In this document: positions 1,802 to 16,471 of the stretch, piece after piece | Layout of the letters: each line of letters begins with the position of its first letter | Position numbering within the stretch: position 1 is the first letter of the stretch | NCBI GenBank assembly: GCA_902803185.1 | Contig: CADCOV010000223.1 | Coordinates: forward strand, 1 to 16,696 | Reading direction: 5' to 3' | From: an uncultured Eubacteriales bacterium | Lineage (GTDB): Bacteria > Bacillota > Clostridia > Peptostreptococcales > Anaerovoracaceae | Length of the DNA stretch: 16,696 nt | Position numbers and translations under genes: made by a program | Notes under the pieces: model-generated | Told to the model about the DNA's origin: nothing | Seen by the model: the letters and a program-made list of their open reading frames with translations, nothing else | Database searches by the model: none

Positions 1802-1835
1802 CCCCGCCTAAGCCGCAAACTTTTGAAAAAAACAC

Positions 1836-2289: not shown

Positions 2290-2316
2290 TCATTTCCTTT
2301 GAAATTGTCCGAGGCG

Positions 2317-3807
2317 CTAGGCCCGTTCCGCGGCGAGCTTCGCCGCGATCTCCGCGGCCGCCTTCTCGTCGCCCATCCAGTCGTCCTTGCCGTTCCCCCG
2401 GTCCAGGTACTTCTCGTCGCCCTTGCCCAGGATCAAAACCATGTCCCCCGGCTTCGCGCCGCGGATCGCGGTCTCGATGGCCTCGTACCGGTCCTCGATG
2501 ATCCGTACCTTCTCCTCCGGCAGGTCCCCCTTGATCTCGGCGGCGATGTCCACCGCCCGCTCGTCCCGGGGATCCTCCTCCGTCAGATACAGAAGATCAC
2601 AGTTCTCGCCCGCGATGCTGCCCAGCACCGGGCGCTTCTTTTTGTCCCGCTTGCCCGCGGAGCCGAAGACCGCGAAGACCGCGGCGCCCGGCCGCTTCAC
2701 GGAGCGGACGAACTCGAAGATCTTCTCGAAGCCGTCCGGCGTGTGGGCGTAGTCCACGATCAGGTCCAGGCCCAGGTCGTTCTCCACGATCTCCATCCGG
2801 CCGTCCACCTGGCGGATCTTCACCGCCGCAGCGGCGATGTCCTGAAGCGCGTGGCCCGTCTGGTGCAGGGCCGCGATGGCGGCGCAGAGGTTGGAGATGT
2901 TGTATTTGGCCGTGAGGTTGGTGCGGACCGGGACCAAAGCCTCCTCCCCGCCGTTCGCCTCCGCGGACACGCGGAGGGTGAAGGTGCTGCCGCCGGCGCC
3001 GGACATGGTGAGGTCCGTGAACCGGTAGTCCGCCTCCGGCGCTTCGCCGTAGGACAGGGTCCGGCAGGCGCTGACCGCCTTCAGGGCCCCGTAGCTCGCC
3101 TCGTCGTCGGCGTTCAGGATCGCGAGACCCTCCGGTTTCATCCTCGTGAACAGGCGCTGCTTCGCCTCGAAGTAGGCCTCCATGGTCTTGTGGAAGTCCA
3201 GGTGGTCCCAGGTCAGGTTGGTGAAGATGGCCACGTCGAAATCCACCCCGTCGGTGCGCTTCTCGGCCAGGCCGTGGGAGCTCACCTCCATGGCGACGCT
3301 GTCCATGCCCGCAGCGGCCATCTTCGCCAGGGTGTCCCCGATCTCCAGGGCGTCCGGCGTGGTCAGGTTCGGCTTGGTGTCCACGTCGCCGTAGCGGACA
3401 GCGATGGTCCCCATGTAGCCGCAGCGGCCGCCCATCTGCTCGATCATGTCCCGGATCACGCAGGTGGTGGTGCTCTTGCCGTTGGTGCCGGTGACGCCGT
3501 AGACGGTCATCTTGGAGGACGGGCTGCCGTAGAACCGCTCCGCCGCCAGGGCGAGGGCCTCCTGCGGATCCTCCATCCGGATGTAGGTGACGCCTTCGAT
3601 CGGCGTCACGTCGTCGGAGTGGACCACCGCGACGGCGCCCGCCGCCACCGCCTTATCGATGTACTTGTGGCCGTCGGTCTGGGTGCCTTTGATCGCAAAG
3701 AACAGATCCCCCGGCCCCGCCTTCCGGGAATCAAAAACAGGGGAAGCGATCTCTCGCTCCCCTTCTGTACGATTCTCGAGCTGCGGAAAAAGTGTCTTGA
3801 GCTTCAT
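2317..3807 (-). CDS. murE: UDP-N-acetylmuramoyl-tripeptide synthetase (MurE), probably meso-DAP adding
   Basis: 496 aa, normal MurE length. MurE is the cytoplasmic ATP-dependent ligase that adds the third amino acid to UDP-MurNAc-L-Ala-D-Glu. Visible: the N-terminal MurE fold with FDSRKAGPGDLFFAIKG (25-41), P-loop GVTGTNGKST (104-113), TTPDA (149-153), NLTWDHLDFH (197-206), carbamylated-lysine position K216 in EAKQRLF, VDGRMEIV (334-341) and DYAHTPD (352-358). The substrate-selecting loop reads EDPRDE (411-416): the Arg of the DNPR motif that contacts diaminopimelate is kept, but Asn is Asp. The usual C-terminal GHE...DDRE block is replaced by GKGDEKYLDRGNGKDDWMGD (461-480), marking a divergent subfamily, so a paralogue role is possible. 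AAGGAGG lies 6 nt before the ATG. Last gene of the cdaA operon, 37 nt after nadE. Confidence 0.9.
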   Translation of the reverse strand: MKLKTLFPQLENRTEGEREIASPVFDSRKAGPGDLFFAIKGTQTDGHKYIDKAVAAGAVAVVHSDDVTPIEGVTYIRMEDPQEALALAAERFYGSPSSKMTVYGVTGTNGKSTTTCVIRDMIEQMGGRCGYMGTIAVRYGDVDTKPNLTTPDALEIGDTLAKMAAAGMDSVAMEVSSHGLAEKRTDGVDFDVAIFTNLTWDHLDFHKTMEAYFEAKQRLFTRMKPEGLAILNADDEASYGALKAVSACRTLSYGEAPEADYRFTDLTMSGAGGSTFTLRVSAEANGGEEALVPVRTNLTAKYNISNLCAAIAALHQTGHALQDIAAAAVKIRQVDGRMEIVENDLGLDLIVDYAHTPDGFEKIFEFVRSVKRPGAAVFAVFGSAGKRDKKKRPVLGSIAGENCDLLYLTEEDPRDERAVDIAAEIKGDLPEEKVRIIEDRYEAIETAIRGAKPGDMVLILGKGDEKYLDRGNGKDDWMGDEKAAAEIAAKLAAERA

Positions 3808-3844
3808 AGAGCCCTCCTTGTTTCCTTTGTCAAATGCTCTGCGG

Positions 3845-4612
3845 TCACCGGATGTCGTCGGCCAGGATCGGCGCGTCGTGCTGGAAGCACGGCATGAGCT
3901 CCAGCTTGAACCGGTTCCAGCGGCGCTTGTTGTCGATCAGTTTCTTGGTCTCAGGATCGTCGATCTCTCCGGTGCGGATGTAGCGGTCCAGCACCTCGTA
4001 GGTGAAGCCCAGGTTCTGCTCGTCCGTCAGGCCGGAAAGCCCGTCGATCGGGACCTTGTGGACCAGCTGGTCCGGCAGGCCCAGGGCGGTGCCCACGGCC
4101 CGGACCTCCTGCACCGTCAGCTTCGCCAGCGGGCTGAAGTCGCCGGCGGCGTCGCCGTAGCGGGTGGAGTAGCCGACCCAGTCTTCGGAGAGATTGCAGG
4201 TGTTCGCCACCCGGCCGTTCATGGACTGGCTCACCGCGTAGGTGGCGGCCATCCGGATGCGGGCCGGCAGGTTGGTCCTGGTCTGCTTGGTGATCTCAGC
4301 AGGAAGCTGCTCGTCGATCTCCTTGAGCAGGGCGTCCACGGTGCTGCCGATGTTCACGACGGTGTAGCCGATCCCCAGGGTGTTCACCAGGAGCAGGGAC
4401 ATGTCGATGTCCGGCTGCACGCCCTGCGGCAGGAGCACGCCGAAGACCCGGTCCTTGCCCAGGGCCTCCACGCACAGCGCCGCGGTGACGGAGCTGTCCT
4501 TGCCGCCGCTGATGGCGACCACCGCGTTGCAGCCCTTGCCGTTCACCTCGAACCAGTCTCTGATCCACTGCACGATCTCGTTCTTTACTTTTTCCGCGTC
4601 AAATGTATACAT
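3845..4612 (-). CDS. nadE: NH3-dependent NAD+ synthetase
   Basis: 255 aa, the size of the ammonia-using enzyme without a glutaminase domain. It amidates nicotinic acid adenine dinucleotide to NAD+ with ATP, the last step of NAD synthesis. Visible: the ATP-pyrophosphatase motif SGGKDSS (35-41), TNLPARIRMAATYAVS (113-128, matching the NadE dimer/NaAD-binding helix), NTCNLSED (137-144) in place of the common GTxNKSE, and YGDAAGDFSPLAKLTVQEV (152-170). The ribosome site GAGGAG lies about 5 nt before the ATG. It starts 12 nt after the stop of the YwlG-type gene, so the two are probably translated from one message. If ammonia is the only nitrogen donor, activity depends on free ammonium, common in amino-acid-fermenting anaerobes (inference). 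Confidence 0.93.
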   Translation of the reverse strand: MYTFDAEKVKNEIVQWIRDWFEVNGKGCNAVVAISGGKDSSVTAALCVEALGKDRVFGVLLPQGVQPDIDMSLLLVNTLGIGYTVVNIGSTVDALLKEIDEQLPAEITKQTRTNLPARIRMAATYAVSQSMNGRVANTCNLSEDWVGYSTRYGDAAGDFSPLAKLTVQEVRAVGTALGLPDQLVHKVPIDGLSGLTDEQNLGFTYEVLDRYIRTGEIDDPETKKLIDNKRRWNRFKLELMPCFQHDAPILADDIR

Positions 4613-4624
4613 GTTTTCTCCTCG

Positions 4625-5194
4625 TTATCTCGGGATGTCTCCGCCGGACAGATGGAGGTCGTAGACCGCCCTCTCGCCGCCGATGAACTTCGGCCTGGTC
4701 CTGGCGCAGACCACGTGGGCCTCGCCGATGGTCTTCTGGGCGATCCGGACCGGCACCGCCACAGCCTTGAGGTGCATGCCGATCAGCGTGTCGCCGATGT
4801 CCATGCCGCCCGCCGCCTTGACGGTCTCCACCGCGACAGGATCCTCCGCGTTGTTGTAGACGGTCATGGCAAAGGAACCGCCCGCATGGAGCTGCGGCAC
4901 CACGTTGACGATCTCCTGCCCCGGCAGCAAAGCCGCCCGCTCCAGGATGACCGCACGGTTCAGATGTTCACAGCACTGGGCAGCCAGGAAGATGCCCCTC
5001 TCCTTCAGGATCGGCGCCACGCCCTCGTACACCGCCTTGGCGGCGTCCAGGTCGGATCCCCTTCCGATGTTCGCGCCCTTGATCTCGCTGGAGGAACAAC
5101 CGATGATAAAAATGTCGCCTTTCTGCAGGTGTGATTTCTCAAGAAGTTCCTCGAGGGCCGTTGCGGCCTGTTCTCTGATCTCTTCGTAAGTCAT
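4625..5194 (-). CDS. TIGR01440 / DUF436 (YwlG-like, UPF0340) family protein
   Basis: 189 aa, close to B. subtilis YwlG. The sequence shows the family signature: GCSSSEIKGANIGRGSDLDA (32-51), an AAQCCEHLNRA block (about 71-81) with paired Cys followed by EHLNRA, VPQLHAGGSFA, GMDIGDTLIGMHL and VVCARTRPKFIGGERAVYD. The biochemical function of the family is not established; the conserved Cys/His residues suggest a cofactor- or nucleotide-related enzyme, but I would not assign a reaction. A GAGAGGAG ribosome site lies about 8 nt before the ATG. It sits between ahcY (49 nt upstream) and nadE (12 nt downstream) in the cdaA operon. Confidence 0.88.
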   Translation of the reverse strand: MTYEEIREQAATALEELLEKSHLQKGDIFIIGCSSSEIKGANIGRGSDLDAAKAVYEGVAPILKERGIFLAAQCCEHLNRAVILERAALLPGQEIVNVVPQLHAGGSFAMTVYNNAEDPVAVETVKAAGGMDIGDTLIGMHLKAVAVPVRIAQKTIGEAHVVCARTRPKFIGGERAVYDLHLSGGDIPR

Positions 5195-5243
5195 GATATC
5201 ACTCCTCTCTTCCGATAACTTACTATTAGATTCATACCCGTTT

Positions 5244-6506
5244 TCAGCCGAGATTCCAGCTGTTCAGGTATTTTTTCTGCTCTTCTGTCAGGGCGTCGAT
5301 CTCGATGCCCCAGGCCGCCAGCTTCCGGCGGGCCACCACGTCGTCGATCTCCGCGGAGACGTCGATGACGTCCTTCGGGAGACGGGCGTAGTTCTCTTTG
5401 ATGTAGAGGGCCGACAGGAACTGGACGGCAAAGCTCATGTCCATGATCTCCGCCGGATGGCCGTCCGCTGCCGCGATGTTGACCAGCTTGCCCTCGCCGA
5501 TGACGTTGACGGTCCTGCCGTTCTCCAGCTCGTAGGCGGTGATGTTGGCCCTGGCCTCCGCCTTGGAGACGCACTTCTCCTCCAGCTCCGCCATGTCCAC
5601 CTCGCAGTTGAAGTGGCCGGAGTTGGCCAGGATCGCCTGGTCCTTCATGGTCAGCATGTGCTTCACCGTGATGGTCTTGCAGCAGCCGGTGGCGCTGACG
5701 AAGATGTCGCCGATCTTCGCGGCGTCGTCCATCTTCATGACGTCGTAGCCGTCCATCTTCGCCTCGATGGCTTTGACCGGATCGACCTCGCAGACCGTGA
5801 CCCTGGCGCCCAGCGCCGCCGCCCGCATGGCGATGCCCCTGCCGCACCAGCCGTAGCCCACGACCACCACGTTCTTGGCGGCCACGATCAGGTTGGTGTT
5901 CCTCATGATGGAATCCCAGGTGGACTGGCCGGTGCCGTAGCGGTTGTCGAAGAGGTGCTTGCAGTCCGCGTCGTTGACCGCCACCATCGGGAAGCGCAGC
6001 ACGCCCTCCCGGGCCATGGCGCGAAGCCGGATGACGCCGGTGGTGGTCTCCTCACAGCCGCCCAGGACGCACTCGCCCAGGTCCGGCCTCTTGGTGTGGA
6101 TCATGGACACCAGGTCGCCGCCGTCGTCGATGATGATGTGCGGCTTGTGGGACAGGCACATCTCGATGTGGCGGAAGTACTCCTCATCCGTCGCGCCGTG
6201 ATAGGCGAAGACCTTGAGGCCGTCCTCCACCAGCGCCGCCGCCACGTCGTCCTGGGTGGACAGGGTGTTGCTGCCGGTCACGGACATCTCCGCGCCCGCC
6301 GCCGCCAGCACCTTGCACAGGTAGGCGGTCTTGGCCTCCAGGTGGACGGACAAAGAGATCCTCAGCCCCGCGAAGGGCTTGCTCTCCCTGTATTCCTCCT
6401 CCAGCCCCCGGAGGAGCGGCATGTTGTGGCGCACCCACTCGATCTTGCGGTGGCCGGATGGCGCCAGACTGATATCTCTGATCTCGTATTCCGATGCGAT
6501 GCTCAT
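5244..6506 (-). CDS. ahcY: Adenosylhomocysteinase (S-adenosyl-L-homocysteine hydrolase)
   Basis: 420 aa. The enzyme reversibly splits S-adenosylhomocysteine into adenosine and homocysteine with bound NAD, keeping methylation going. Visible: SVHLEAKTA (53-61) with His55, DDGGDL (127-132), EETTTG (152-157) with Glu153, VNDADCKHLFDNRYGTGQS (177-195) with Lys183 and Asp187, the NAD-binding GYGWCGRG (217-224), NSGHFN (295-300) with His298 and DGHPAEIMDMSF (348-359). The short form and the ending LTEEQKKYLNSW resemble the archaeal/Thermotoga branch rather than the longer bacterial-eukaryotic type, which ends in a PxHYRY tail. A related S-inosylhomocysteine hydrolase activity is known in that branch and cannot be excluded. 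An AAAGGA site lies about 11 nt before the ATG; cdaR ends 32 nt upstream. Confidence 0.93.
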   Translation of the reverse strand: MSIASEYEIRDISLAPSGHRKIEWVRHNMPLLRGLEEEYRESKPFAGLRISLSVHLEAKTAYLCKVLAAAGAEMSVTGSNTLSTQDDVAAALVEDGLKVFAYHGATDEEYFRHIEMCLSHKPHIIIDDGGDLVSMIHTKRPDLGECVLGGCEETTTGVIRLRAMAREGVLRFPMVAVNDADCKHLFDNRYGTGQSTWDSIMRNTNLIVAAKNVVVVGYGWCGRGIAMRAAALGARVTVCEVDPVKAIEAKMDGYDVMKMDDAAKIGDIFVSATGCCKTITVKHMLTMKDQAILANSGHFNCEVDMAELEEKCVSKAEARANITAYELENGRTVNVIGEGKLVNIAAADGHPAEIMDMSFAVQFLSALYIKENYARLPKDVIDVSAEIDDVVARRKLAAWGIEIDALTEEQKKYLNSWNLG

Positions 6507-6538
6507 TCTTATGTGTTTCCTTTCGTTTTCCCTATCCT

Positions 6539-7939
6539 TCAGGCCTCTCCGCCGTCGTCGCCGCTGCCCGGCTCTTCGGTGCTGCCGGAGTCGTCTCCCC
6601 CGTCATCGCCGGAGCTTTGGTCGCCGCTTTGGTCATCGCCGCCGCTTTGGTCGCCGCCGCCGGACTGATCGTCTCCGCCGGACCGGTCATCACCGCCGCC
6701 CTTGTCGTCGCCGCTGTCGGACTTGGAGTCGTCCTTGTCCTCCGGCACCGTCACCACCACGTAGAGCTCCTGCGGCTCCGCGCCGATCGCGCTGTAGGTG
6801 CCGCTGCACTCGATCTGGATCGGCACCGCCGAGGTGCCCGCCCCCAGCTCGGAGACGTCGATGGACAGGGAGATGTCCTCTTTGCTGATGCGGTTGAGGT
6901 CCGCCGCCCGGCCCCTGGCCGTGATGACGATGGATGGCGAGGATGCCATCACATACTGCAGCGCGCTGCTCTGGCCCGTCATGGTCACCTCGGAGGAGTT
7001 GAAGGTATAGGACTGCTCCATCATCCCCGTGACCTTCACGCTCAGGGCGAGCGGTCCGTTCTGGTCGGAGATGCTGACTCCCTTCGGGAGGTTGGAGAAG
7101 AGCAAAGCGATCTCCGTGTCCTCCACGATGTTGGTGATGTCCACCGGGTCCGCGGTGATGATCCCGACCCCCTTGAGGTCGCTGGCGAGGCCCGTGATCA
7201 GGACCTCATCCGGCGCGGTGGTCGTTCTCTCCGCGTCGTCGGTGCTGGTATCGGTGACAGGCACCGTCAGCTTGACGGTCTTGACCTGGGTCAGGATCGC
7301 CGTGACGGAGGCGCTGCTGTAGTTCATGGAGATCCGCTCCACCGGGTGGCCGGTCTCGTCCACCGCAGTGAGCTGGGTGGTCATGGTGGCTGCCTCTTCC
7401 GTGATGTCGGAAGCCGCGATCTGTCCTCTGACCATGGTCACCTGGTCGACCAGGGACTGGGCGCCGCTGATCTCGACGGTCGTCGGGTCCAGCTCCAGGA
7501 CGCTGCCGTCCTCCCCCTCATCGAAGGTGCCGGTGAACTGGATGTCCACGTCCACCGTCTTGGCGCTCAGCGGTTCTACGGTGACCACGACCCGGCTCAC
7601 GGAACGGGAGGAGACGGTGATGCCGCTCGGCACCCTGACCGTGACGACCAGTTCGTTGTCTCCCCGGACCGCCGCCGCCAGGTCCACAGCGGCCACGATA
7701 TCGCTCGCGCTGACAGAGGACAAAGCGGTGCGGCTGCCCGTCAGCGTCACGTCGATGGTCTCCGTGCTGATGTCGCTGACCGCGAGCCCCCGCTCTCTCA
7801 AAACGCTCTCGTTATAGAAGGAGACCTTGACGCCGTTCACCGGCTTGCTGGTCTCCGGATCCTGCCCGACGACGTAGACCCAAAGGGCCACGGCGAGGAT
7901 CAGGGACAGGATGATCTTGAAATTCCGGTTGTTAAGCAT
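6539..7939 (-). CDS. cdaR: YbbR-domain protein, regulator of diadenylate cyclase (CdaR)
   Basis: 466 aa. CdaR is a membrane-anchored extracytoplasmic protein that modulates CdaA. Residues 7-25 form one hydrophobic segment after a short basic N terminus (NNRNFKIILSLILAVALWVY), followed by VVGQ and several YbbR-type beta repeats up to about residue 398. The last 68 residues (399-466) are a low-complexity acidic tail of Asp, Gly, Ser and Gln with repeated SGGDDQ-like units, which core YbbR proteins lack. The start overlaps the end of cdaA by 8 nt, so translation is likely coupled. Gene order cdaA-cdaR is the conserved one, but ahcY rather than glmM follows. Identity rests on the N-terminal anchor, repeat character and neighbour. 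Confidence 0.88.
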   Translation of the reverse strand: MLNNRNFKIILSLILAVALWVYVVGQDPETSKPVNGVKVSFYNESVLRERGLAVSDISTETIDVTLTGSRTALSSVSASDIVAAVDLAAAVRGDNELVVTVRVPSGITVSSRSVSRVVVTVEPLSAKTVDVDIQFTGTFDEGEDGSVLELDPTTVEISGAQSLVDQVTMVRGQIAASDITEEAATMTTQLTAVDETGHPVERISMNYSSASVTAILTQVKTVKLTVPVTDTSTDDAERTTTAPDEVLITGLASDLKGVGIITADPVDITNIVEDTEIALLFSNLPKGVSISDQNGPLALSVKVTGMMEQSYTFNSSEVTMTGQSSALQYVMASSPSIVITARGRAADLNRISKEDISLSIDVSELGAGTSAVPIQIECSGTYSAIGAEPQELYVVVTVPEDKDDSKSDSGDDKGGGDDRSGGDDQSGGGDQSGGDDQSGDQSSGDDGGDDSGSTEEPGSGDDGGEA

Positions 7940-8780
7940 CCTTCTTCCCTCCTCCCAGCAGTTTCTTCAGCCAGCTGAACCTTCCGGTCTCATCCTCCGG
8001 CTTCAAATAGAGGTTCAGGAGAAGCTTCTCCACCTCTTTGGCGTCCAGGAACCGGCGGAGCCTTCCGCCTCTGGCCACCGAAATGACGCCGTTCTCCTCG
8101 CTGACGATGAGGACCACAGCGTCCGAGTTCTCCGTGATGCCGATGGCAGCCCGATGCCGGGTGCCAAGCTCCTTATTCAGATCGAGGCTGGCCGTCAGCG
8201 GCAGCACGCAGCCAGCCGCATGGATCCGGTCGCCCCGGACGATGGCGGCGCCGTCGTGGAGCGGCGCGCCCTTGTAGAAGATGTTGCCGATCATCTCCGC
8301 CGAGATCTCCGCGTCGATGACGGTGCCGGTCTCGGCGATGTCCCCCAGGGTGACCTCCTGCTCGATGACGATCAGGGCGCCGGTCCTCGTGGCGGAGAAC
8401 CCGTCGATGGCCTTGACGAACTCGTCGGTGATCCGCTTGGCGTCGGTCTTCTCGAGCTGGGCCCTGGTCGGGAAGATGGATCCCCTCGCCAGATGCTCCA
8501 GGCCCCGACGCAGCTCCGGCTGGAAGATGACGACCAAAGCGATGAGCCCGATGTTCAGGGTGCTCCTGAGCAGCCAGTTCAGCATGTACATGTGCAGGGC
8601 CTGGGAGGCGAAGAAGGCCGCGATCAAAAGGCCGAGCCCCTTGACCAGCTGCTCCGCCCTGCTGTTGCTGATGAATCCCAGTATCTTGTAGATGAGGAAG
8701 GCCACCACAAGAATGTCCAGGATATCGGTGATGCTTATACCCGTCGTGATGTTGGAAATGAATTCCTTCAAAATGGTCAT
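7932..8780 (-). CDS. cdaA: Membrane-bound diadenylate cyclase CdaA (DAC domain)
   Basis: 282 aa, the typical CdaA length. It joins two ATP to make cyclic di-AMP, the second messenger for potassium/osmotic balance and cell-wall homeostasis. The N terminus has about three membrane helices (near 18-37, 45-63 and 72-87), then a DAC (DisA_N) domain from about residue 100. Catalytic motifs are intact: DGA at 176-178 within GAPLHDGAAIVRG, and GTRHRAA at 206-212. The short Lys-rich tail is usual. First gene of the operon cdaA-cdaR-ahcY-ywlG-nadE-murE; a promoter lies at 8820-8848 and purine-rich GGGGAAGGG serves as ribosome site. Confidence 0.95.
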   Translation of the reverse strand: MTILKEFISNITTGISITDILDILVVAFLIYKILGFISNSRAEQLVKGLGLLIAAFFASQALHMYMLNWLLRSTLNIGLIALVVIFQPELRRGLEHLARGSIFPTRAQLEKTDAKRITDEFVKAIDGFSATRTGALIVIEQEVTLGDIAETGTVIDAEISAEMIGNIFYKGAPLHDGAAIVRGDRIHAAGCVLPLTASLDLNKELGTRHRAAIGITENSDAVVLIVSEENGVISVARGGRLRRFLDAKEVEKLLLNLYLKPEDETGRFSWLKKLLGGGKKDA

Positions 8781-8819
8781 GACCCTTCCCCTTCCATATA
8801 GTTAGACTTAATCTATATT

Positions 8820-8848
8820 ATTTTACATGACAATGGTGTGCATTTCAA
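8820..8848 (-). promoter_or_regulatory. Promoter of the cdaA operon
   Basis: On the minus strand, TTGAAA (8843-8848), a 17-bp spacer and TAAAAT (8820-8825). The start would be near 8813, giving a leader of about 33 nt. It lies just downstream of the hpf terminator, so the cdaA operon and hpf are separate units. Confidence 0.75.
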
Positions 8849-8865
8849 TCTTTTCAGAGGAATCG

Positions 8866-8901
8866 GCGAAAATTAAAGGGGGCTGCCTTCCGGCAGCCCC
8901 C
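8866..8901 (-). terminator. hpf terminator
   Basis: A perfect 10-bp stem, GGGGGCTGCC (8878-8887) with GGCAGCCCCC (8892-8901), and a 4-nt loop. Read on the minus strand it is followed by TTTAATTTT (8869-8877). The stem begins 18 nt after the hpf stop codon. Confidence 0.92.
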
Positions 8902-8919
8902 GCGGGTCTCGTCTCGTGA

Positions 8920-9453
8920 TCAGTATTTGGTTTCCAGAACGCCGTAGTTGCCGTCGTTCTTCTTGTATACGATGTTGACCAGGTCGCTTTCATCGTTGAT
9001 GAACACGTAGAAGTCGTGGTCGATCATCTCCATCTGCAGGATCGCGTCCTCCACCGCCATCGGGGTGAGATCCAGGCTCTTGGTCCTGGTGATGTGGCCG
9101 ATCTCCTCGACGATCTCCTCCTCCGGCGTCGGGATCGCCTCGAACCGGACGGATTTGTTATCGTTATATCTCTTCTGCAGCTTGCCCTTGAACTTGGACA
9201 TCTGGCTCGCAAGTTTGTCTATCGACTTGTCGATGCATTCGTAAATGTCGTCGCCCACCTGCTCAGTTCTGAACTGAGCCCCCTTCGCGTTGATGTTGAC
9301 CTCGATCTTGTCCTTGCCTCTCTCCTGGGAGAGCAGCACCTTTGCCGCAATGTCATCGGAGAAGAACTTTCCGAGCTTGTCCAGCTTCTTGTCGATGGTG
9401 TCCTCGAGGTGCTTGTTGGTTTTGTAGTTTTTGCCGGTGATTGTGATTCTCAT
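8920..9453 (-). CDS. hpf: Ribosome hibernation promoting factor, long form (HPF/RaiA/YvyD)
   Basis: 177 aa from the second of two adjacent ATG codons. I prefer 9453 over 9456 because the AAGGAGG (9460-9466) is then 6 nt away rather than 3. Residues 1-100 form the S30AE/RaiA domain (MRITITGKNYK..., KLDKLGKFFSDDIAAKVLLS) that binds the 30S decoding region. After a linker rich in Glu and Pro (about 107-116), residues 118-177 form the C-terminal dimerisation domain of long HPFs (TRTKSLDLTPMAVEDAILQM, HDFYVFINDES, VVYKK-like NIVYKKNDGNYGVLE), which joins two 70S ribosomes into 100S dimers. It has its own promoter, a structured leader and a strong terminator. Upstream lies a raiA-like structured RNA. 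The secA gene that often follows hpf in Bacillota is absent; cdaA follows. Confidence 0.95.
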   Translation of the reverse strand: MRITITGKNYKTNKHLEDTIDKKLDKLGKFFSDDIAAKVLLSQERGKDKIEVNINAKGAQFRTEQVGDDIYECIDKSIDKLASQMSKFKGKLQKRYNDNKSVRFEAIPTPEEEIVEEIGHITRTKSLDLTPMAVEDAILQMEMIDHDFYVFINDESDLVNIVYKKNDGNYGVLETKY

Positions 9454-9470
9454 CATCTGCCTCCTTACCG

Positions 9471-9528
9471 TTTCACCTCCGGCAGTCTCCCGGGGAAGTC
9501 GTTTCCCCGGCAGGCAGCTGAGGCGAAA
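9471..9528 (-). promoter_or_regulatory. Folded 5' leader of hpf
   Basis: The hpf leader can form two stacked stems. The outer 9-bp stem pairs 9520-9528 (TTTCGCCTC in the RNA sense) with 9471-9479 (GAGGTGAAA), including one G-U pair. The inner stem is a perfect 8-bp CCGGGGAA/TTCCCCGG hairpin with a 5-nt loop (9490-9510). The outer 3' arm ends only 4 nt before the AAGGAGG ribosome site, so folding could affect translation or mRNA stability. Whether it matches a described raiA-associated hairpin cannot be judged by eye. Confidence 0.6.
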
Positions 9529-9544
9529 CTAACTTTGTGTCTAT

Positions 9545-9553
9545 AGTATACCA
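9545..9553 (-). promoter_or_regulatory. Extended -10 promoter of hpf
   Basis: On the minus strand TGGTATACT is an extended -10 (TGnTATAAT type): TATACT at 9545-9550 with TG two bases upstream. No good -35 is present. The start would be near 9538, about 10 nt before the leader stems. Confidence 0.55.
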
Positions 9554-9574
9554 CAAAATTCTGAATTATAAAGA

Positions 9575-9780
9575 GGAAAATATAAAAGCGGCTGCGCAGC
9601 CGCCCGCCTGACCTGGTCTTTGCCCCCACACTTGCCTTGACCGGGATTTTCCCGAGGACTTACTTCTAAACTATGCCATGATCGCCGCGGCTTCCTGCTC
9701 ACGGTTTACGTGGATCCCTTTGCCCATAGCTGGCCTGGATTTTCAACCACAGACACGGACGGCTGCGCAGCCGCTTTTTT
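9575..9780 (-). ncRNA. raiA RNA: Structured non-coding RNA, probable raiA-motif RNA
   Basis: About 205 nt without a convincing ORF. The ends form an exact inverted repeat, AAAAGCGGCTGCGCAGCCG (9584-9602) against 9760-9778, extended by five pairs (two G-U) to arms 9584-9607 and 9755-9778: a 24-bp closing helix. On the minus strand the 3' arm is followed by TTTTATATTTTCC, so it can also act as terminator. Inside, in the minus sense, lie GGTTGAAAATCC, GGGATCCACG with a CACG/CGTG hairpin, a GCTATG/CATAGT pairing, and hairpin CGGGAAAATCCCG. The raiA motif is a ~200-nt ncRNA described upstream of raiA (hpf) in Bacillota and Actinomycetota; length, placement, orientation and closing stem fit. Purine-rich loops favour the minus strand. 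No clear own promoter was found; it may be processed from the upstream transcript. A 6S-like RNA is the alternative. Confidence 0.7.
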
Positions 9781-9809
9781 GATTCTGTTTTCAAGGTGCA
9801 CTGCCGCAT

Positions 9810-10625
9810 CTACAGCAGTCTCTTATAGATGTCCAGCATGCTCTCGATCTGGTAGCGGAGCAGCCAGGCCGCATCGTTGTACGCCGGCTCTTCCTTGATC
9901 CGCCGCAGCAGCTGCGGATAATACTTTTCGGTCTCCGCGATCATCCGGTAGATTCTCTCGCGGCTGAGGCCCCACGCCATCGTGGTCAGGTTGTTGCATC
10001 GGTCGATGCATTTGATCAGCGCGGCTGCGGGTTCCGCCTCCAGGGCAGCATAATAAGCGTCCATCACCTGCTCCCGATCCTGCCCATTCGCCTTCTCGTG
10101 GGTCATCAAAACGACCAGCCTCCTTGCCGGTTCCCCCACAGGGAGGTCTTCTGCGGTCTTTCCGCAATCCTCGATCACATCGTGGAGCAGGATGGCGGCG
10201 ATCACCGCGTCCTCTTTGATCCCCATGGAAAGGGCGTGGCAGGCCATGTTCAGCGGATGGTAGATGTACGGCGTCTTCGACCGTTTCCGTGTCTGTCCGT
10301 GATGCGCTTCCACCGCATAGTCCAGTGCCCGCAGCGTGTCCGTCAGGCCCAGGCCCTTAGCTGTGGCCTTGACGAAGGTCTTCATATGTTCCCAATCGTA
10401 GATCACGTCCTTCGTTCGGAACGTACCGCGTTTTTCCTCCACGATCGAGGAAACGGATGTATCCAGCACCTCTGCCAGACGGATCAGGTTGTCCGTGTCC
10501 GGCCGGTACTCGTCCCTTTCCCAGGCAGAGACCGCCTGAAAGGACACGTCCAGACGCTCTGCCACCTGTTCCTGGGTCATGCCGATCGACGCCCTCGCTC
10601 TTCTGATATTATCTCCGATACTCAT
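9810..10625 (-). CDS. XRE-type HTH fused to SpoT/MESH1-like HD hydrolase domain
   Basis: 271 aa. Residues 5-62 are a Cro/C1-type HTH (IGMTQEQVAERLDVSFQAVS, then WERDEYRPDTDNLIRLAEVL). Residues about 95-230 form an HD domain with the (p)ppGpp-hydrolase pattern of RelA/SpoT and MESH1: HHGQTRKRSKTPYIYHPL (108-125), LLHDVIED (146-153) with H148, D149, E152 and D153, and the CIDRCNN block (206-212) with Asp208. All residues expected for Mn-dependent pyrophosphohydrolysis appear present; no synthetase or TGS/ACT domain follows. I infer a regulator that hydrolyses, or is controlled by, an alarmone-like nucleotide. It starts 9 nt after an unrecognised gene, so both form a cassette. GC is visibly lower than in neighbours. 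Domain calls are solid, substrate is not. Confidence 0.85.
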   Translation of the reverse strand: MSIGDNIRRARASIGMTQEQVAERLDVSFQAVSAWERDEYRPDTDNLIRLAEVLDTSVSSIVEEKRGTFRTKDVIYDWEHMKTFVKATAKGLGLTDTLRALDYAVEAHHGQTRKRSKTPYIYHPLNMACHALSMGIKEDAVIAAILLHDVIEDCGKTAEDLPVGEPARRLVVLMTHEKANGQDREQVMDAYYAALEAEPAAALIKCIDRCNNLTTMAWGLSRERIYRMIAETEKYYPQLLRRIKEEPAYNDAAWLLRYQIESMLDIYKRLL

Positions 10626-10634
10626 ACCCTGCCC

Positions 10635-11162
10635 CTAGTCGATGTAACCAAAACTGTAGATCTTCGTCGCGCCTGCAGCCGCAAGGTCCGCTTCCACCTC
10701 GTTTTGGACGGTCTCCATGAATCCCTGATCCCAACAATCACTGGTGACGCCGATGTCTTCCGGCCAGATCTCCACCGGGAGTCCGTTCAGCAGGCACTCC
10801 GTTTTGACCAGCTTCGAAGGCCATCCCGGAGCCGCGTCCCAGGCCGTCTTTCTTTCCCGGAACTTCTCTTTCCAGAGAGCGCGAAGGTTTGCGAGGACCT
10901 GCCCGTTGACCCTCTCAGAAGCCTGCTTTTCCGGGATCCGTTCGATCTCGTCCATGCGGTCCAGACAACCGAACCGATAAGGGGATCCCTCCGGCTCATA
11001 GGGATCGAACCCCAGGAGATGCCCCATGATCAGAGCGTGATCATCCGGCTCCCACCGGCCATCCCGGAACAAGCAGTCCCGTACGTGGCCATCCTCCCAT
11101 GCCCGTCTCCCGACCAGTTTGCCGCGGATCAAGTAGTATATCGTTTCTCTTTCCTTATCCAT
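10635..11162 (-). CDS. Hypothetical protein, cassette partner of the XRE-HD gene
   Basis: 175 aa from ATG 11160-11162, which follows AAGGAGG by 8 nt; an upstream in-frame ATG (MCKEDEH) would overlap that ribosome site. I do not recognise the family. The protein is soluble, without signal peptide or membrane helix, and rich in Trp, Asp, Glu and Arg. Visible blocks are RDCLFRDGRWEPDDHALIMG (about 28-47), GFDPYEPEGSPYRFG (51-65) and a C-terminal GFMETVQNEVEADLAAAGAT followed by KIYSFGYID. The downstream XRE-HD gene begins 9 nt after its stop, so the two are likely translated together. A toxin-antitoxin, phage-defence or effector/regulator pairing is possible, but nothing in the sequence shows activity. 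A weak TATGAT about 30 nt upstream may be the -10 box. Confidence 0.75.
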   Translation of the reverse strand: MDKERETIYYLIRGKLVGRRAWEDGHVRDCLFRDGRWEPDDHALIMGHLLGFDPYEPEGSPYRFGCLDRMDEIERIPEKQASERVNGQVLANLRALWKEKFRERKTAWDAAPGWPSKLVKTECLLNGLPVEIWPEDIGVTSDCWDQGFMETVQNEVEADLAAAGATKIYSFGYID

Positions 11163-11245
11163 GTGTTCGTCCTCCTTACACATGGATCATATCTGAGATC
11201 CCAGGGAAAGTGTAGCAGGCAGGCATTGAAGTTCAGCCCTTATGT

Positions 11246-11262
11246 CTCAAGTCATACTTGAG
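11246..11262. other. Perfect 7-bp inverted repeat across the comF stop codon
   Basis: CTCAAGT (11246-11252) and ACTTGAG (11256-11262) are separated by CAT and span the comF stop. No T-run follows on the minus strand, so it is not a classical terminator. It sits at the upstream edge of the lower-GC cassette and could be an operator or a weak RNA hairpin. Confidence 0.45.
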
Positions 11263-11971
11263 TCCCGCCCGGCTCGAATTCCACGTCCGTCTTTTCCCGG
11301 GCGGCGAAGGCGAGGAACACGACCTCCGCAGGCTCCGCTGCCCGCAGCGCGTCCCCGCAGGCCCGCCCGGTGCTGCCGGTGGTGGAAAAGTCGTCGATCA
11401 AAACGATCCGTTTCCCTTTCGCGAACCCTTCATAGCCTTCTCTGAGGGCGATGCTGCCGGCGATGTTGCTCATCCGCTCCTCCGGCCCCAGCCCTCTCAT
11501 CGGCCTCGTCTTCCTCGTCCTCACCAGGCAGTCCGGCACGCTTTCGGCGCTGATGAGGGGGGCGAGGTATTTCGCCATCAAAGCCGCCTGGTTGAAGCCC
11601 CGCGCCCTCTCCTTTTCCGGATGGAGGGGCACCGGCACCAGGATGTCGGCTTTGATGCCGGCGGCCGCGAGGCGGTCCGCCATGATCTTCGCCGCCTCCC
11701 TCGCGATGTAGCGGCGTCCGTTGTATTTCAGCGAGAAGATGATGCTCCGCTCGTAGATCCCGTAGTCCATGCAGCGCAGGAAGGGCATGCCCGCCCGGAT
11801 CTCCGGCGGATCCGCGTTCCACCGGATGTGGTCCATGCAGTGGTCGCAGAGGCTGTAGGTCCGGGTCCGGTCGATCAGGTTGCCGCAGCAGATGCAGTAC
11901 AGGGACGGCGGGAACAAGAGGTCCAGTGCCCCCTCCCCGGCCCGCCTGAGCAGCGCCGCCGCCCGGGTCAA
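11252..11971 (-). CDS. comF: ComF family phosphoribosyltransferase-like protein
   Basis: 239 aa. N-terminal zinc-finger-like cysteines, CICCGN (27-32) and CDHC (42-45), are followed by the ComF core: FSLKYNGRRYIA, LVPVPLHPEKERARGFNQA, RTRKTRPMRGL and the PRPP loop VLIDDFSTTGSTG. ComF proteins (ComFC/GntX) work with the ComFA helicase in DNA uptake and also occur where no competence is known. The start is TTG at 11969-11971, which overlaps the recD2 stop TGA in a TTGA arrangement and follows GGAGGG by 5 nt, so translation is coupled to recD2. No comFA is present in this window. Last gene of the yhaM-recD2-comF operon; the lower-GC cassette starts about 90 nt downstream. Confidence 0.92.
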   Translation of the reverse strand: MTRAAALLRRAGEGALDLLFPPSLYCICCGNLIDRTRTYSLCDHCMDHIRWNADPPEIRAGMPFLRCMDYGIYERSIIFSLKYNGRRYIAREAAKIMADRLAAAGIKADILVPVPLHPEKERARGFNQAALMAKYLAPLISAESVPDCLVRTRKTRPMRGLGPEERMSNIAGSIALREGYEGFAKGKRIVLIDDFSTTGSTGRACGDALRAAEPAEVVFLAFAAREKTDVEFEPGGTQV

Positions 11972-14193
11972 CCGATCCCTCCGCCGCCGAAGGCCAGGCT
12001 GATGAGCCGCTGCTTCAGGCCGGAGTACCGGAGCTTGATGCTGTTGTTGTCGATCATGTCCTCCATCCGCTTCTGGGAACCGGCCAGCACCACCAGCTTC
12101 TTGCCCCTGGTGACGGCGGTGTACAGAAGGTTCCGGGTCGCCAGCATCGGCGGGAACCAGGTGACCGGCATGACCACCGCCGGGAACTCGCTGCCCTGGC
12201 TCTTGTGGACGGTGACCGCGTAGGCCAGCTCCACCTCGTCCAGCTGGGTGGCGTCGTAGGTGACGAACCGGTCCTCGTCGTAGACCACGGTGACGGTGTT
12301 GTACTCCGGATCGATGCTCTGGATGAAACCCACGTCGCCGTTGAAGATGCCCTGGCCCTCGCTCATGTCCCGCCGCTTCTTCCAGCCGATCTGGTAGTTG
12401 TTGCGGATCTGCATGACCTTGTCCCCCTCCCGGAAGAGGCGGCCGCCGTGCTTCTTTTCGTTCTTGGCCGGGTCCGGCGGGTTCAGGGCCTCCTGCAGCA
12501 TCTCGTTCAGGGCGACGGTGCCCAGGGGTCCCTTGTGGACCGGGGTCAGCACCTGGATGTCTTTGATCGGGTCCAGGTCCGTATAGTAGTCGGAGAGGCG
12601 CCGGGTCGCCAGGTCGATGATCAAAGTCACCAGCGCCGGCTCGCTCCGCCGCTCCATGAAGAAGAAGTCCTTCTCCTTCTCGTTCACGTAAGGATATTCG
12701 CCGCTGTTGATGCGGTGGGCGTTCACCACGATCAGGGACTCCTCCGCCTGGCGGAAGATGTCCGTGAGCCGGGTGGTGTAGACCGCGTCGCTCTCGATGA
12801 TGTCCCGGAGCACGTTCCCCGCCCCCACCGACGGCAGCTGGTCGCAGTCGCCGATCAGGATGAGCCGGGTCCCGGTCCTGATGGCGTCGGTCAGCCCGCC
12901 CATCAGCATCAGGTCGATCATGGAGGCCTCGTCGATGATGACGACGTCGTAGCCCAGCGGCTCGTCGCAGTTCTTGCCGAAGCGCATCTCGTCCGTCTCG
13001 TCGGAGTAGTAGTACTCCAGCAGGCGGTGGATGGTGGAGGCGTAGTGGCCGCTGGTCTCGTTGATCCGCTTGGCCGCCCGCCCCGTCGGCGCCGCGATGG
13101 CGGTCTTCAGGTCGCTCCGCTCGAAGATCCGGATCATCGTGTTGATGATGGTGGTCTTGCCGGTGCCCGGGCCGCCGGTGATGACCGACAGGCCGCAGCC
13201 CACGGAGCTCACGATGGCCCGCTTCTGCTGCTCGCTCAAAACGATCCCGGTGTCCGCCTCGGTCTGGCGGATCATGTTCTCCACGTCCGTCATCAAAGGC
13301 TTCAGCTTCCCGCCGGCGATCCGCATCAGGTCCGCCGCCACCCTCTGTTCGGCGATATAGTACGGGTAGAGGTAGCAGACCTCCTCCCCTTCCAGTTCGT
13401 CCAGTTTGATGACGCCGTCAAAGGCCAGCGCCACGATCTCGTCGAAGATCAGCTCGCCCGGCAGGTCCAGGAGCTCCACGACCTTGTCCACCAGCTCCGC
13501 CCGGGGCATGTAGGTGTTCCCCTCCCCGACGAAGTACCACAGGGCGTATTTGATCCCGCTGCGGATGCGGAAGGGACTGTTCTTCTCCACCCCCAGCTTC
13601 TCCGCCACCTGGTCCGCCTTGCGGAAGCCGAAGCCTCTGACCTCGTCCACCAGCCGGTAAGGGTCCTCCTCCACCAGCGCCACCGCGTCCGGGCCGTAGT
13701 TCTTATATAGGCGCAGGGCCATGGCCGTCGGGATCCCGTAGCTCTGGAACTGCATGGCGATCCTGGCGAACTGCCGGTGCAGGGCAAAGGACTCCGCGAT
13801 GGTGGCGGCGGTCTTGTTGCCGATGCCCTTGACGGTGGTGAGCCGCTCCGGCTCCTCCTCCATGATCCTCAGCGTGTCGTCCCCGAACTTCTCGATGATG
13901 GCGGCCGCCGTCTTGGCGCCCACGCCCTTCACCGTTCCGGAGCACAAAAAATCAAAGATCGCCTCGCTGCTGTCAGGCAAAAGCTCCTCGAACTCGCTGA
14001 AGGCGAACTGCTCCCCGTAGTGCGGGTGGTTTTTGAACACGCCGGTGAGACGGTAGCGGGTGCCCCTGACGCAGTGCGGCAGGTTCCCCACCACCGTGAA
14101 ATATTCGGTTTCCGTTTCCATGACGGCCACGGTGTATCCGTTCTCCTCGTTGCGGAAGATGATATCCGTGATCGTCCCCTGTCTCTCCTCCAT
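11968..14193 (-). CDS. recD2: RecD2-type ATP-dependent DNA helicase
   Basis: 741 aa, the usual RecD2 length (RecD-like, without RecBC). A 5'-3' SF1B helicase for DNA repair and replication-fork maintenance. Order: N-terminal OB-like region (GTITDIIFRNEENGYTV), helix-hairpin-helix-like repeats (VKGVGAKTAAAIIEKFG at 88-104, VKGIGNKTAATIAESF at 121-136, a third GFGFRKADQVAEKLG at 187-201), Walker A GGPGTGKTT (340-348), APTGRAAKR (368-376), Walker B DEAS (421-424), GDCDQLPSVGAGNVL (448-462), TVHKSQGSEF (661-670) and YTAVTRGKKLVVLAG (691-705). All helicase motifs are intact. The ribosome site before ATG 14193 is weak, and yhaM ends 24 nt upstream, so coupling is likely. Its stop overlaps the comF start by 4 nt. 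Confidence 0.95.
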   Translation of the reverse strand: MEERQGTITDIIFRNEENGYTVAVMETETEYFTVVGNLPHCVRGTRYRLTGVFKNHPHYGEQFAFSEFEELLPDSSEAIFDFLCSGTVKGVGAKTAAAIIEKFGDDTLRIMEEEPERLTTVKGIGNKTAATIAESFALHRQFARIAMQFQSYGIPTAMALRLYKNYGPDAVALVEEDPYRLVDEVRGFGFRKADQVAEKLGVEKNSPFRIRSGIKYALWYFVGEGNTYMPRAELVDKVVELLDLPGELIFDEIVALAFDGVIKLDELEGEEVCYLYPYYIAEQRVAADLMRIAGGKLKPLMTDVENMIRQTEADTGIVLSEQQKRAIVSSVGCGLSVITGGPGTGKTTIINTMIRIFERSDLKTAIAAPTGRAAKRINETSGHYASTIHRLLEYYYSDETDEMRFGKNCDEPLGYDVVIIDEASMIDLMLMGGLTDAIRTGTRLILIGDCDQLPSVGAGNVLRDIIESDAVYTTRLTDIFRQAEESLIVVNAHRINSGEYPYVNEKEKDFFFMERRSEPALVTLIIDLATRRLSDYYTDLDPIKDIQVLTPVHKGPLGTVALNEMLQEALNPPDPAKNEKKHGGRLFREGDKVMQIRNNYQIGWKKRRDMSEGQGIFNGDVGFIQSIDPEYNTVTVVYDEDRFVTYDATQLDEVELAYAVTVHKSQGSEFPAVVMPVTWFPPMLATRNLLYTAVTRGKKLVVLAGSQKRMEDMIDNNSIKLRYSGLKQRLISLAFGGGGIG

Positions 14194-14216
14194 GGTGAAC
14201 GCCCGGCCCCGCCGCT

Positions 14217-15182
14217 CTACTTGTGGAAGGTCGGCTTATAGACCTTGCGGTTGTCCAGGGTGCGCACCCGCTCGGAGAAGGTGCCCGGCTCCACGCCCTC
14301 CAGCGCGTCCTCCATGTCGAACATGCGGGCGTCCATGATGTCCAGGTAGTGCAGGATCTCCGCCTCCGGGAACATCGGCTTCTTCGGGCTGCCGAAGTCC
14401 GGCTCGTAGTGGTGGGACAGCACCATGTGCTCCAGCAAAATGGCCTTCTCCTCGCCCACGCCCAGCTCCCGGCAAAGCTCGTCGATCATGGTGACGCCCT
14501 GGGTGATGTGGCCCAGCAGCTGTCCCTTCATGGAATAGCCGGAGGCCACGCCGTTCTCGCCGGCGTCGATCTCGTTCAGCTTCTCCATGTCGTGGATGAT
14601 GACGCCGCAGGTCACCAGATCCCGGTCCAGGATGTCGTAGACGTCGCAGAGCCCCTGCCCCGCCATCAGCATCCTCTTCATGTGCCAGAGCAGGCCGCCG
14701 AACTCCGCATGGTGGTTCTTGGCCGCCGCCGGATAGTACATCAGGCGCTCCTTCTCCCGCTCCAGCAGGGTCACCGCCACGTTGCGGAGGTCGTCGTCCC
14801 CGATCTCCCTGGCGATCCCCATGATATAGCCGTACATCTCCTCCGGCACCTCCGGCGCCGCCTTGATGAAATCGTCCATGTTCAGGCCGTCCGCCGGGGA
14901 GCTCTTGCGGATCCTTAAGACCCTGAGCTGCACGTTCCCCTGCCACTCGGTGACCTGGGCCTTGACCTTGATGATCTCGCCCTCTTTGATCGCGGACAGC
15001 GCCGGCTGCTCCGCATCGGTCACGTCCCACTTCTTCCCGGACACCTCGCCGGTCTTGTCCGCCAGGTGCATGTCCAGGTATTGCTTCTTATTCGATCCGA
15101 CCCGGATGCCGATGGATTTCACCATGAAAAAGTCGATGAACTCCATGTTGCTCTTCAGGTCTTTGACGTAAAACTGCTTCAT
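14217..15182 (-). CDS. yhaM: YhaM-family 3'-5' exoribonuclease (OB fold + HD domain)
   Basis: 321 aa; B. subtilis YhaM has about 314. Residues 15-95 match the OB-fold nucleic-acid-binding domain (YLDMHLADKTGEVSGKKWD). Residues about 155-290 are the HD nuclease domain: HHAEFGGLLWHMKRM (157-171), GVIIHDMEKLNEID (193-206) with His197-Asp198, GQLLGHITQG (220-229), LSHHYEPDFGSPKKP (255-269) and EAEILHYLDIMDARM (273-287). These match the metal-binding His/Asp set of the YhaM/Cbf1 group, Mn-dependent enzymes acting on RNA and single-stranded DNA. First gene of the yhaM-recD2-comF operon; its promoter at 15221-15249 is near consensus. GGGAG lies about 10 nt before the ATG. Confidence 0.94.
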   Translation of the reverse strand: MKQFYVKDLKSNMEFIDFFMVKSIGIRVGSNKKQYLDMHLADKTGEVSGKKWDVTDAEQPALSAIKEGEIIKVKAQVTEWQGNVQLRVLRIRKSSPADGLNMDDFIKAAPEVPEEMYGYIMGIAREIGDDDLRNVAVTLLEREKERLMYYPAAAKNHHAEFGGLLWHMKRMLMAGQGLCDVYDILDRDLVTCGVIIHDMEKLNEIDAGENGVASGYSMKGQLLGHITQGVTMIDELCRELGVGEEKAILLEHMVLSHHYEPDFGSPKKPMFPEAEILHYLDIMDARMFDMEDALEGVEPGTFSERVRTLDNRKVYKPTFHK

Positions 15183-15220
15183 AAATGATCACTCCCTCGT
15201 ATCCGACTCGGTACTTTTTG

Positions 15221-15249
15221 ATTATAAAAGATTCCCCATACAATGTAAA
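15221..15249 (-). promoter_or_regulatory. Promoter of the yhaM-recD2-comF operon
   Basis: On the minus strand, TTTACA (15244-15249), a 17-bp spacer and perfect TATAAT (15221-15226); start near 15213, leader about 30 nt. The -35 box directly adjoins the T-run of the upstream response-regulator terminator. Confidence 0.87.
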
Positions 15250-15280
15250 CAAAAAGAGACCGCGCGGTCGCGCAGTCCCT
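15250..15280 (-). terminator. Terminator of the response regulator gene
   Basis: Stem GACCGCGC (15258-15265) with GCGCAGTC (15270-15277), one G-U pair in the RNA and a 4-nt loop; two further pairs are possible. On the minus strand it is followed by TCTTTTTG (15250-15257). It starts 13 nt after the gene's stop codon. Confidence 0.85.
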
Positions 15281-15290
15281 GTCATCCTCT

Positions 15291-16004
15291 CTATTTGATC
15301 TTCTCGATCTTGTAACCGATGCCCCAGACCACCTTCAGGTACTTCGGGTTCTTCGGATTGATCTCGATCTTCTCCCGGATCCGGCGGATGTGGACCGCCA
15401 CGGTGTTCTCCGGGTTGTAGGCCGGCTCGTTCCAGACGTGCTCGTAGATCTGCTCGATGGAGAACACCTTGCCCGCGTTCTGGATCAGCAGCTTCAGGAT
15501 GCCGAACTCCGTCGGCGTCAAAGTCACCTGCTCCCCGTCCACGGTCACGGTCTTCTCGTTGTCGTCCACGACCAGGCCGCCGTTCCGATAGATGCCCTCC
15601 TTCGTCTCGGCGTCCATGCTCCCGAGGCTGGTGAACCGCCTCAGCTGGGACTTGACCCTGGCCACCAGCTCCAGCGGATTGAACGGCTTGGTGATGTAGT
15701 CGTCCGCCCCCACGTTCAGCCCGGTGATCTTGTCGTAGTCCTCGCTCTTCGCCGACAGCATGATGATCGGGATGTTCTTCTCCTCCCGGATCTTCATCGT
15801 CGTCCGGATCCCATCCAGCTTCGGCATCATCACGTCCATCAGGATCAGGTGGATCGGCTCCTCGCTCACGATCTTCAAAGCCTCCATCCCATCGTAGGCC
15901 TTGAACACCCGATACCCCTCGTTCTCCAGATAGATCTCCACGGCGCCCGCGATCTCCTTGTCGTCATCGCAGACCAGAATGTTCATCTTGTTATTGCTGT
16001 CCAT
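15291..16004 (-). CDS. OmpR/PhoB-family response regulator
   Basis: 237 aa. Receiver domain at about 7-122: acidic pocket Asp13-15 (VCDDDKEIAG), phosphoacceptor Asp57 (LILMDVMMPKLDG), Ser84 (IMLSAKSED) and Lys106 (YITKPFNPLELVARV). The C-terminal winged helix (about 140-235) shows LTPTEFGILKLLIQNAGKVF, the VHIRRIREKIE recognition helix and YLKVVWGIGYKIEK. All phosphotransfer residues are intact, so a histidine kinase is expected, but none is adjacent; the gene is flanked by its own terminator and a non-coding region with an outward-facing gene. It resembles VanR-like regulators of Clostridia, but the regulon cannot be predicted. GGGAGAG lies about 5 nt before the chosen ATG; another ATG six codons in is possible. 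Confidence 0.93.
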   Translation of the reverse strand: MDSNNKMNILVCDDDKEIAGAVEIYLENEGYRVFKAYDGMEALKIVSEEPIHLILMDVMMPKLDGIRTTMKIREEKNIPIIMLSAKSEDYDKITGLNVGADDYITKPFNPLELVARVKSQLRRFTSLGSMDAETKEGIYRNGGLVVDDNEKTVTVDGEQVTLTPTEFGILKLLIQNAGKVFSIEQIYEHVWNEPAYNPENTVAVHIRRIREKIEINPKNPKYLKVVWGIGYKIEKIK

Positions 16005-16057
16005 CGCTTCTCTCCCATCTTCCCGTCATACCCGCTGCCGCATCCGGCACCACCTAT

Positions 16058-16066
16058 ACTGTAGCA
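16058..16066 (-). promoter_or_regulatory. Possible extended -10 of the response regulator gene
   Basis: The minus strand reads TGCTACAGT, a TGn-extended -10 with four of six matches in the hexamer, about 55 bp upstream of the start codon. No -35 is clear, so this is a tentative call. Confidence 0.35.
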
Positions 16067-16090
16067 CATTTTCCCGGAAAAAGATAGACG

Positions 16091-16130
16091 GCGGCGTGGG
16101 TGGGCGCGGGTGGCGTGGTGTGGCGCTGGG
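16091..16130 (+). other. G-rich patch with four GGG runs
   Basis: The plus strand has GGG at 16098-16100, 16102-16104, 16108-16110 and 16128-16130, with several GG steps between. Three runs are tightly spaced; the last loop is 17 nt. A G-quadruplex is conceivable but not certain. It lies upstream of the response regulator and before the direct repeats. Confidence 0.4.
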
Positions 16131-16138
16131 CATCGTGG

Positions 16139-16230
16139 CTATGTCCAAAAAACGGATCATATCGATATTTGGCATCAAAATCGACGCTTTTCCCAACTAT
16201 GGGCATAAAATAATACAAATGTAAACCCAA
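16139..16230. repeat. Degenerate direct repeat, copy A
   Basis: About 92 nt sharing ordered blocks with 16252-16345: CTATGTCCAA, TGGCATCA, ATCG-CG-TTT, TGGGCAT and GTAAACCCAA. It contains a short inverted CCCA/TGGG element (16194-16204). Copies are 21 nt apart. No gene is evident within; the function is unknown. Confidence 0.75.
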
Positions 16231-16251
16231 ACGAGCCTTCAAAGCAGTTTT

Positions 16252-16345
16252 CTATGTCCAAATCCGTAGAAAGTCCAGATCCTGGCATCAATATCGGCGG
16301 TTTCCCGATTTTTGGGCATGAGATGTTGTATTATCGTAAACCCAA
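16252..16345. repeat. Degenerate direct repeat, copy B
   Basis: About 94 nt; same block order and spacing as copy A (CTATGTCCAA at 16252, TGGGCAT in the middle, GTAAACCCAA ending at 16345). Divergence is concentrated between the blocks, suggesting selected sites or an old duplication. The remaining non-coding sequence of 16005-16471 outside the repeats, G-rich patch and promoters shows nothing I can name. Confidence 0.75.
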
Positions 16346-16420
16346 GTATCCAGATGTCGGCGCCGTGTTCTGCCACCCGCCGCCCCGGCCGCATTTTCCC
16401 GTGCCGCCCGGCCCGGAGTA

Positions 16421-16429
16421 TGCTATAAT
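16421..16429 (+). promoter_or_regulatory. Extended -10 promoter of the right-edge gene
   Basis: TGCTATAAT is a perfect extended -10 (TATAAT at 16424-16429). No recognisable -35 sits at 16401-16406. Start near 16436, leader about 36 nt. Confidence 0.65.
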
Positions 16430-16471
16430 ATATGAGTTAATGAGCAACATACCTGCAAGGAGGCGGCTTCA

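Follow-up and report, generated by a model that had tools for sequence, protein, structure and literature searches.

A raiA (ModT) RNA with a lengthened P1 helix that probably doubles as its intrinsic terminator in the Anaerovoracaceae

The raiA RNA, or ModT, is a well-known noncoding RNA of bacteria. ModT of Clostridioides difficile acts in trans, as is also cited for Clostridium acetobutylicum, and its complementation in trans was taken to exclude a cis-acting riboswitch (PMC11706538); the same paper proposes that a terminator stem guards ModT(L) from exonuclease. The structure of C. acetobutylicum raiA was determined by cryo-electron microscopy (cryo-EM; PMC11751092), the source of the numbered contacts and of the definition of pk-1 used below, and the C. 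acetobutylicum RNA is described as a monomer (PMC12286853). Here we analyse the raiA locus in a 16,696-nt stretch of DNA, hereafter the window, from an uncultured Eubacteriales bacterium of the family Anaerovoracaceae (assembly GCA_902803185.1, contig CADCOV010000223.1, positions 1 to 16,696). We propose, with a probability of about 0.68, that the locus specifies a raiA RNA in which a lengthened P1 helix seals the RNA ends and serves as an intrinsic terminator, the RNA acting in trans.

A raiA RNA upstream of hpf

An initial annotation of the window had marked a noncoding stretch of about 205 nt as a raiA-like RNA upstream of hpf, enclosed by a 19-bp exact inverted repeat that became 24 bp when two G-U pairs were counted, and had named an Rfam covariance search and a comparison of pairing in relatives as ways to check it. 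At gathering thresholds, the Rfam scan of the window returned a single match, raiA RNA (RF03072), on the minus strand at 9763–9599, which was also the only match to this model in the assembly. With hpf recognized by its Pfam domains, the identity, strand, size and position of the RNA were all borne out (Table 1). The inverted-repeat search recovered the exact 19-bp repeat flanking the minus strand from 9778 to 9584 (9584–9602 with 9760–9778), the arms 9584–9606 and 9756–9778 being 96% complementary over 23 nt, and the same 24 pairs were present in the minimum-energy fold. That fold reached −92.5 kcal/mol, compared with a shuffled mean of −70.56 kcal/mol (z −4.90), a value equalled by none of 200 shuffles.

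P1, P3, pk-1 and pk-2 are all present in the window RNA. Seven pairs make up pk-1, joining the P3 loop, which begins at A33, to the pk-loop (RNA positions 33–39 with 89–95), and a lone G precedes the 3′ half of pk-1, as PMC11751092 describes. Across 132 aligned short-form relatives, pk-1 was paired in 98.7% of cells, with substitutions on either strand; the corresponding figure was 96.0%, with many pair types, for the outer eight pairs of P1, 99.8% for P3a and 100% for P3b. P1 and pk-1 covary, and the second of the two checks also came out in favour of raiA. The two pairs of pk-2, between the pk-loop and J4-1c, were formed in 132 of 132 relatives but are invariant, and so lend no covariation support. 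The J1c-3a turn U19-G20-A21-A22-A23 and the I3a-3b adenosines A28 and A43–A45 carry the same numbers as in the published structure, position 46 being G rather than A. The feature is unambiguously a normal copy of the known raiA (ModT) noncoding RNA, and it confirms raiA in a little-studied family.

The lengthened P1 helix and its probable role in termination

The RNA was found in 11 of 13 genomes of the window's genus, in 176 of 197 of its family and in 49 of 245 sampled across the class, six of the 49 belonging to the family. For comparison we assembled 140 family loci, taken from the 134 best-scoring of the 176 matching family genomes (the lowest 42 were omitted) and from six further genus genomes, together with all 43 matches of the class sample that lie outside the family. 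One locus with a short flank was dropped from the promoter, U-tract and hairpin counts (n = 139).

We counted P1 extension strictly, as ungapped outward pairing beyond the ends of the Rfam model. In the family, P1 runs a median of 13 bp past the model, and by at least 6 bp in 108 of 140 loci, compared with 11.2 loci on average, and never more than 24, when partners were swapped (500 trials; this control ignores relatedness). Positions 1–15 past the model were paired in 57–89% of loci, as against 39–55% with swapped partners, and base entropy on the 5′ side of the extension was 1.6–1.95 of 2 bits per position. Because the outer positions pair above the swapped level while their bases vary this much, the extended helix is retained even as its sequence changes. 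Long-form members share the extension (at least 6 pairs in seven of eight). Elsewhere in the class, the 43 loci from other families had a median extension of 2, and 6 of the 43 had at least 6 pairs. The inverted repeat that encloses the window RNA is thus the family's usual long P1, and the paired boundary of raiA in this family usually lies about 13 bp outside the Rfam model, so constructs, probes and deletions need to take in the extended P1.

The minus strand at 9605–9586 scored as terminator-like and is followed by TTTTATATTTT; a G+C-rich hairpin directly before a U tract, as in an intrinsic terminator, is therefore predicted here, and the suggestion in the initial annotation that the distal arm could terminate transcription agrees with this. 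Across the family, the extended helix ran into at least five T in eight in 77 of 107 loci with an extension of at least 6 pairs (one of the 108 was dropped from this control); of 856 control positions chosen farther downstream, 147 did so. How common the U-rich end appears depends on the rule, which we set at five or at six T in eight with differing minimum extensions: at five T in eight and any extension length, it was found in 97 of 139 family loci and in 9 of 43 others. Under the strict rule (six T in eight, extension of at least 5 pairs), the other families had a U tract at the P1 end in 2 of 43 loci, a separate hairpin in 14, both in none and neither in 27.

We envisage that P1, lengthened outward by about 13 bp, would close the folded RNA at its ends, and that the 3′ strand of the lengthened helix, together with the U tract, would form an intrinsic terminator freeing the RNA before hpf. 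By analogy with the described ModT RNAs, the freed RNA would presumably act in trans in this organism. In the window alone, the palindromic 3′ arm could fold as a local terminator hairpin first and then zip into P1.

Several results weigh against this proposal. The partner-swap control takes no account of relatedness among loci. An extension shorter than 6 pairs was found in 32 of 140 loci, including L006 and L011, which belong to the 11 loci of the genus. By the strict rule, the U tract stood at the P1 end in just 49 of 139 family loci, a separate hairpin (at most −8 kcal/mol) with a U tract followed within 120 nt in 20, both occurred in 4 and neither in 74. The scan of 9440–9900 gave no clear promoter of the window RNA's own, and a sigma-70-like site (at least 9 of 12 matches, no more than 110 nt upstream) preceded 55 of 139 family loci, compared with 13 in the shuffled control. 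We lowered our overall confidence from 0.70 to 0.68 on account of the loci that lack the extension or the U tract. We nevertheless favour the view that the long P1 took over the terminator role in many members of the family, a view that under the strict rule leaves over half of the loci unexplained. An independent downstream terminator was also considered as the family norm and was set aside on the count of 20 in 139.

Beyond the family, the same sigma-70-like criterion was satisfied at 42 of 43 loci, compared with 17 in the shuffled control, so transcription of raiA may proceed differently in the window's family.

A further possibility, which we regard as tentative and would not bet on, is that raiA in this family stops its own transcription by means of its closing helix, with P1 as the terminator stem and the folded raiA domain as the loop. 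A terminator gated by folding in this way would make release of the polymerase depend on closure of the domain, and would replace the separate downstream terminator of some other class members (14 of 43). Should the extended P1 prove to be the terminator, the family would be a natural setting in which to ask whether the folding of a large RNA domain can be a condition for termination. The part of the raiA literature that we covered does not describe P1, lengthened in this way, as a terminator, and we make no claim that such a role is unpublished.

The best-surviving alternative, though still an unlikely one, is that the long P1 was selected for RNA stability or end protection rather than for termination, the terminator of the window being the hairpin of the 3′ arm alone. 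The window's 3′ arm is indeed a complete hairpin with a U tract, a protective role of this kind is the one suggested for ModT(L) in PMC11706538, and the strict rule leaves many relatives without a U tract at the P1 end. Against this, 3′ arms across the family fold on their own barely better than shuffled ones, yet 77 of 107 extended P1 helices end in U-rich sequence.

Palindromic arms and regulation in cis

Both arms are palindromic, as the initial annotation had noticed: GGCTGCGCAGCC occurs, with at most one mismatch, at 9590–9601 and 9761–9772 and nowhere else in the window, and none of 200 shuffles held two matches (the maximum was one). Exact copies of the 14-mer CGGCTGCGCAGCCG were confined, within an assembly that is 79% complete, to the two arm sites, which rules out an interspersed repeat there. 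A role of the palindromes as a dimerisation site was also considered; the C. acetobutylicum RNA, as noted above, is described as a monomer.

The initial annotation had read these arms as a possible two-state switch, in which each arm folds singly or pairs with the other and thereby alters termination and hpf expression in cis. We consider this very improbable. Both arms are self-complementary, with energies of −12.0 kcal/mol for the 3′ arm alone and −8.6 kcal/mol for the 5′ arm, and the 5′ arm formed a hairpin in the majority of growing-prefix folds up to 150 nt (those of 30, 70, 90, 110, 130 and 150 nt); P1 zipped once the 3′ arm emerged (these are equilibrium folds that leave out pseudoknots, and do not describe kinetics). 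However, the two-hairpin state, at −64.7 kcal/mol, is less stable than the paired state by 27.8 kcal/mol, and no antiterminator is evident because the 3′ arm is paired before the U tract in both states. Among the 108 relatives with an extended P1, moreover, a palindrome of at least 12 nt in both arms was found in one, the window itself. After shuffling, 0.7% of 5′ arms held a palindrome of 12 nt, which predicts 0.75 among 108, so the single instance is at chance level; when the 5′ arm of the window itself was shuffled, 2 of 40 trials gave such a palindrome. The longest palindrome of the 5′ arm averaged 4.09 nt, compared with 4.19 nt after shuffling, and arm hairpin energies over the 108 loci were likewise close to those of shuffled arms (−2.88 against −2.80 kcal/mol for the 5′ arm, −2.79 against −2.53 kcal/mol for the 3′ arm). 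With arm self-pairing near chance in the relatives, the palindrome was rejected as a conserved feature. Two mutually exclusive, conserved pairings that alter termination or translation, the hallmark of a cis-acting switch, were not found at this locus and its relatives; hpf is preceded, past the terminator, by its own promoter-like site, and nothing we found indicates a regulated choice. The palindrome of the window happens to be an individual peculiarity rather than a conserved switch, both forms of the 3′ arm being terminator-like.

More improbable still is a cis-acting riboswitch of hpf, for which the site before hpf (shared, on the same strand, by 97 of 140 family loci) and the Rfam type label ‘Cis-reg; riboswitch’ would speak, but against which stand the trans complementation reported in PMC11706538, the promoter-like site between the RNA and hpf and the presence at some other class loci of a treble-clef zinc-finger gene in place of hpf as the next gene.

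Genomic setting and comparison with described systems

The features of the locus are collected in Table 1. The promoter scan of 9440–9900 found one site, as against 0.2 expected in shuffles. Beyond hpf, on the same strand, lie first the gene of a diadenylate cyclase of the CdaA type (PF02457), then a YbbR-like gene, the three genes occupying 6539–9456 of the minus strand, and upstream of raiA, at 9810–10625 of the minus strand, is a gene for a helix-turn-helix domain fused to an HD_4 domain.

Table 1. Features of the raiA locus in the window.
Feature	Position	Strand	Basis and remarks
raiA (ModT) RNA core, short-P6 form (variant 1)	9599..9763	−	RF03072, 132.8 bits (gathering threshold 101.3), E 4.6e-33, model positions 1–209
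5′ strand of P1 with outward extension	9756..9778	−	Inverted repeat; holds the palindrome at 9761–9772
3′ strand of P1 with outward extension	9584..9606	−	Inverted repeat; holds the palindrome at 9590–9601; can fold alone as a hairpin; terminator-like site 9605–9586
U-rich tract TTTTATATTTT	9577..9587	−	Sequence and terminator scan; the four leading T lie within the 3′ arm
Terminator-like site, same palindrome on the opposite strand, then TTTTTT	9760..9780	+	Terminator scan
Promoter-like site (TTTATA-16-TATACT), −10 element preceded by TG	9545..9572	−	Between the raiA terminator and hpf; consensus match only
hpf/raiA gene, long hibernation promoting factor	8920..9456	−	Pfam PF02482 and PF16321; downstream of the raiA RNA

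A tblastn search with the window hpf located this gene downstream of raiA, and on its strand, in the 97 family loci mentioned above (three more had it antisense) and in 27 of 43 others, numbers from which misses are expected, as one query was used and the flanks were mostly 1000–1500 nt. At L235, L237 and L252–L255, the raiA RNA lies about 40 nt before a treble-clef zinc-finger gene rather than directly before hpf. In family f22 (L223, L224, L225, L227, L229, L231, L238, L243, L246 and L248), a conserved leader of about 100–120 nt leads from raiA to the treble-clef zinc-finger gene, as seen in the first 125 nt after raiA. PF13451 and PF23477 were identified in the two zinc-finger proteins that were scanned, L238 supplying one of these. 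The f22 leader has a mostly conserved TCCC able to pair with a Shine–Dalgarno-like GGGA, and its consensus fold is weak, with no compensatory pairs; three of the ten loci (L223, L225 and L238) were scanned and had no Rfam match except raiA.

Compared with described raiA/ModT RNAs, the window RNA agrees in its full-length match to RF03072, in pk-1, pk-2, P1 and P3, in the junction nucleotides seen by cryo-EM in C. acetobutylicum (PMC11751092) and in its site before hpf. It differs in having a short P6 hairpin in place of P6–P8, which is variant 1 of PMC11751092, and in a P1 that outgrows the ends of the model into a U-rich tract, with arms that are, apparently by chance, palindromic. It resembles the long and short isoforms of C. 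difficile ModT (PMC11706538) as a noncoding RNA that probably terminates near the 3′ end of its core, whereas in the window's family a separate hairpin with a U tract accompanies 20 of 139 loci. The window's 3′ arm, a G+C-rich hairpin followed by a U tract, is like an ordinary rho-independent terminator; unlike one, the main helix closes over the entire 165-nt RNA core as its loop.
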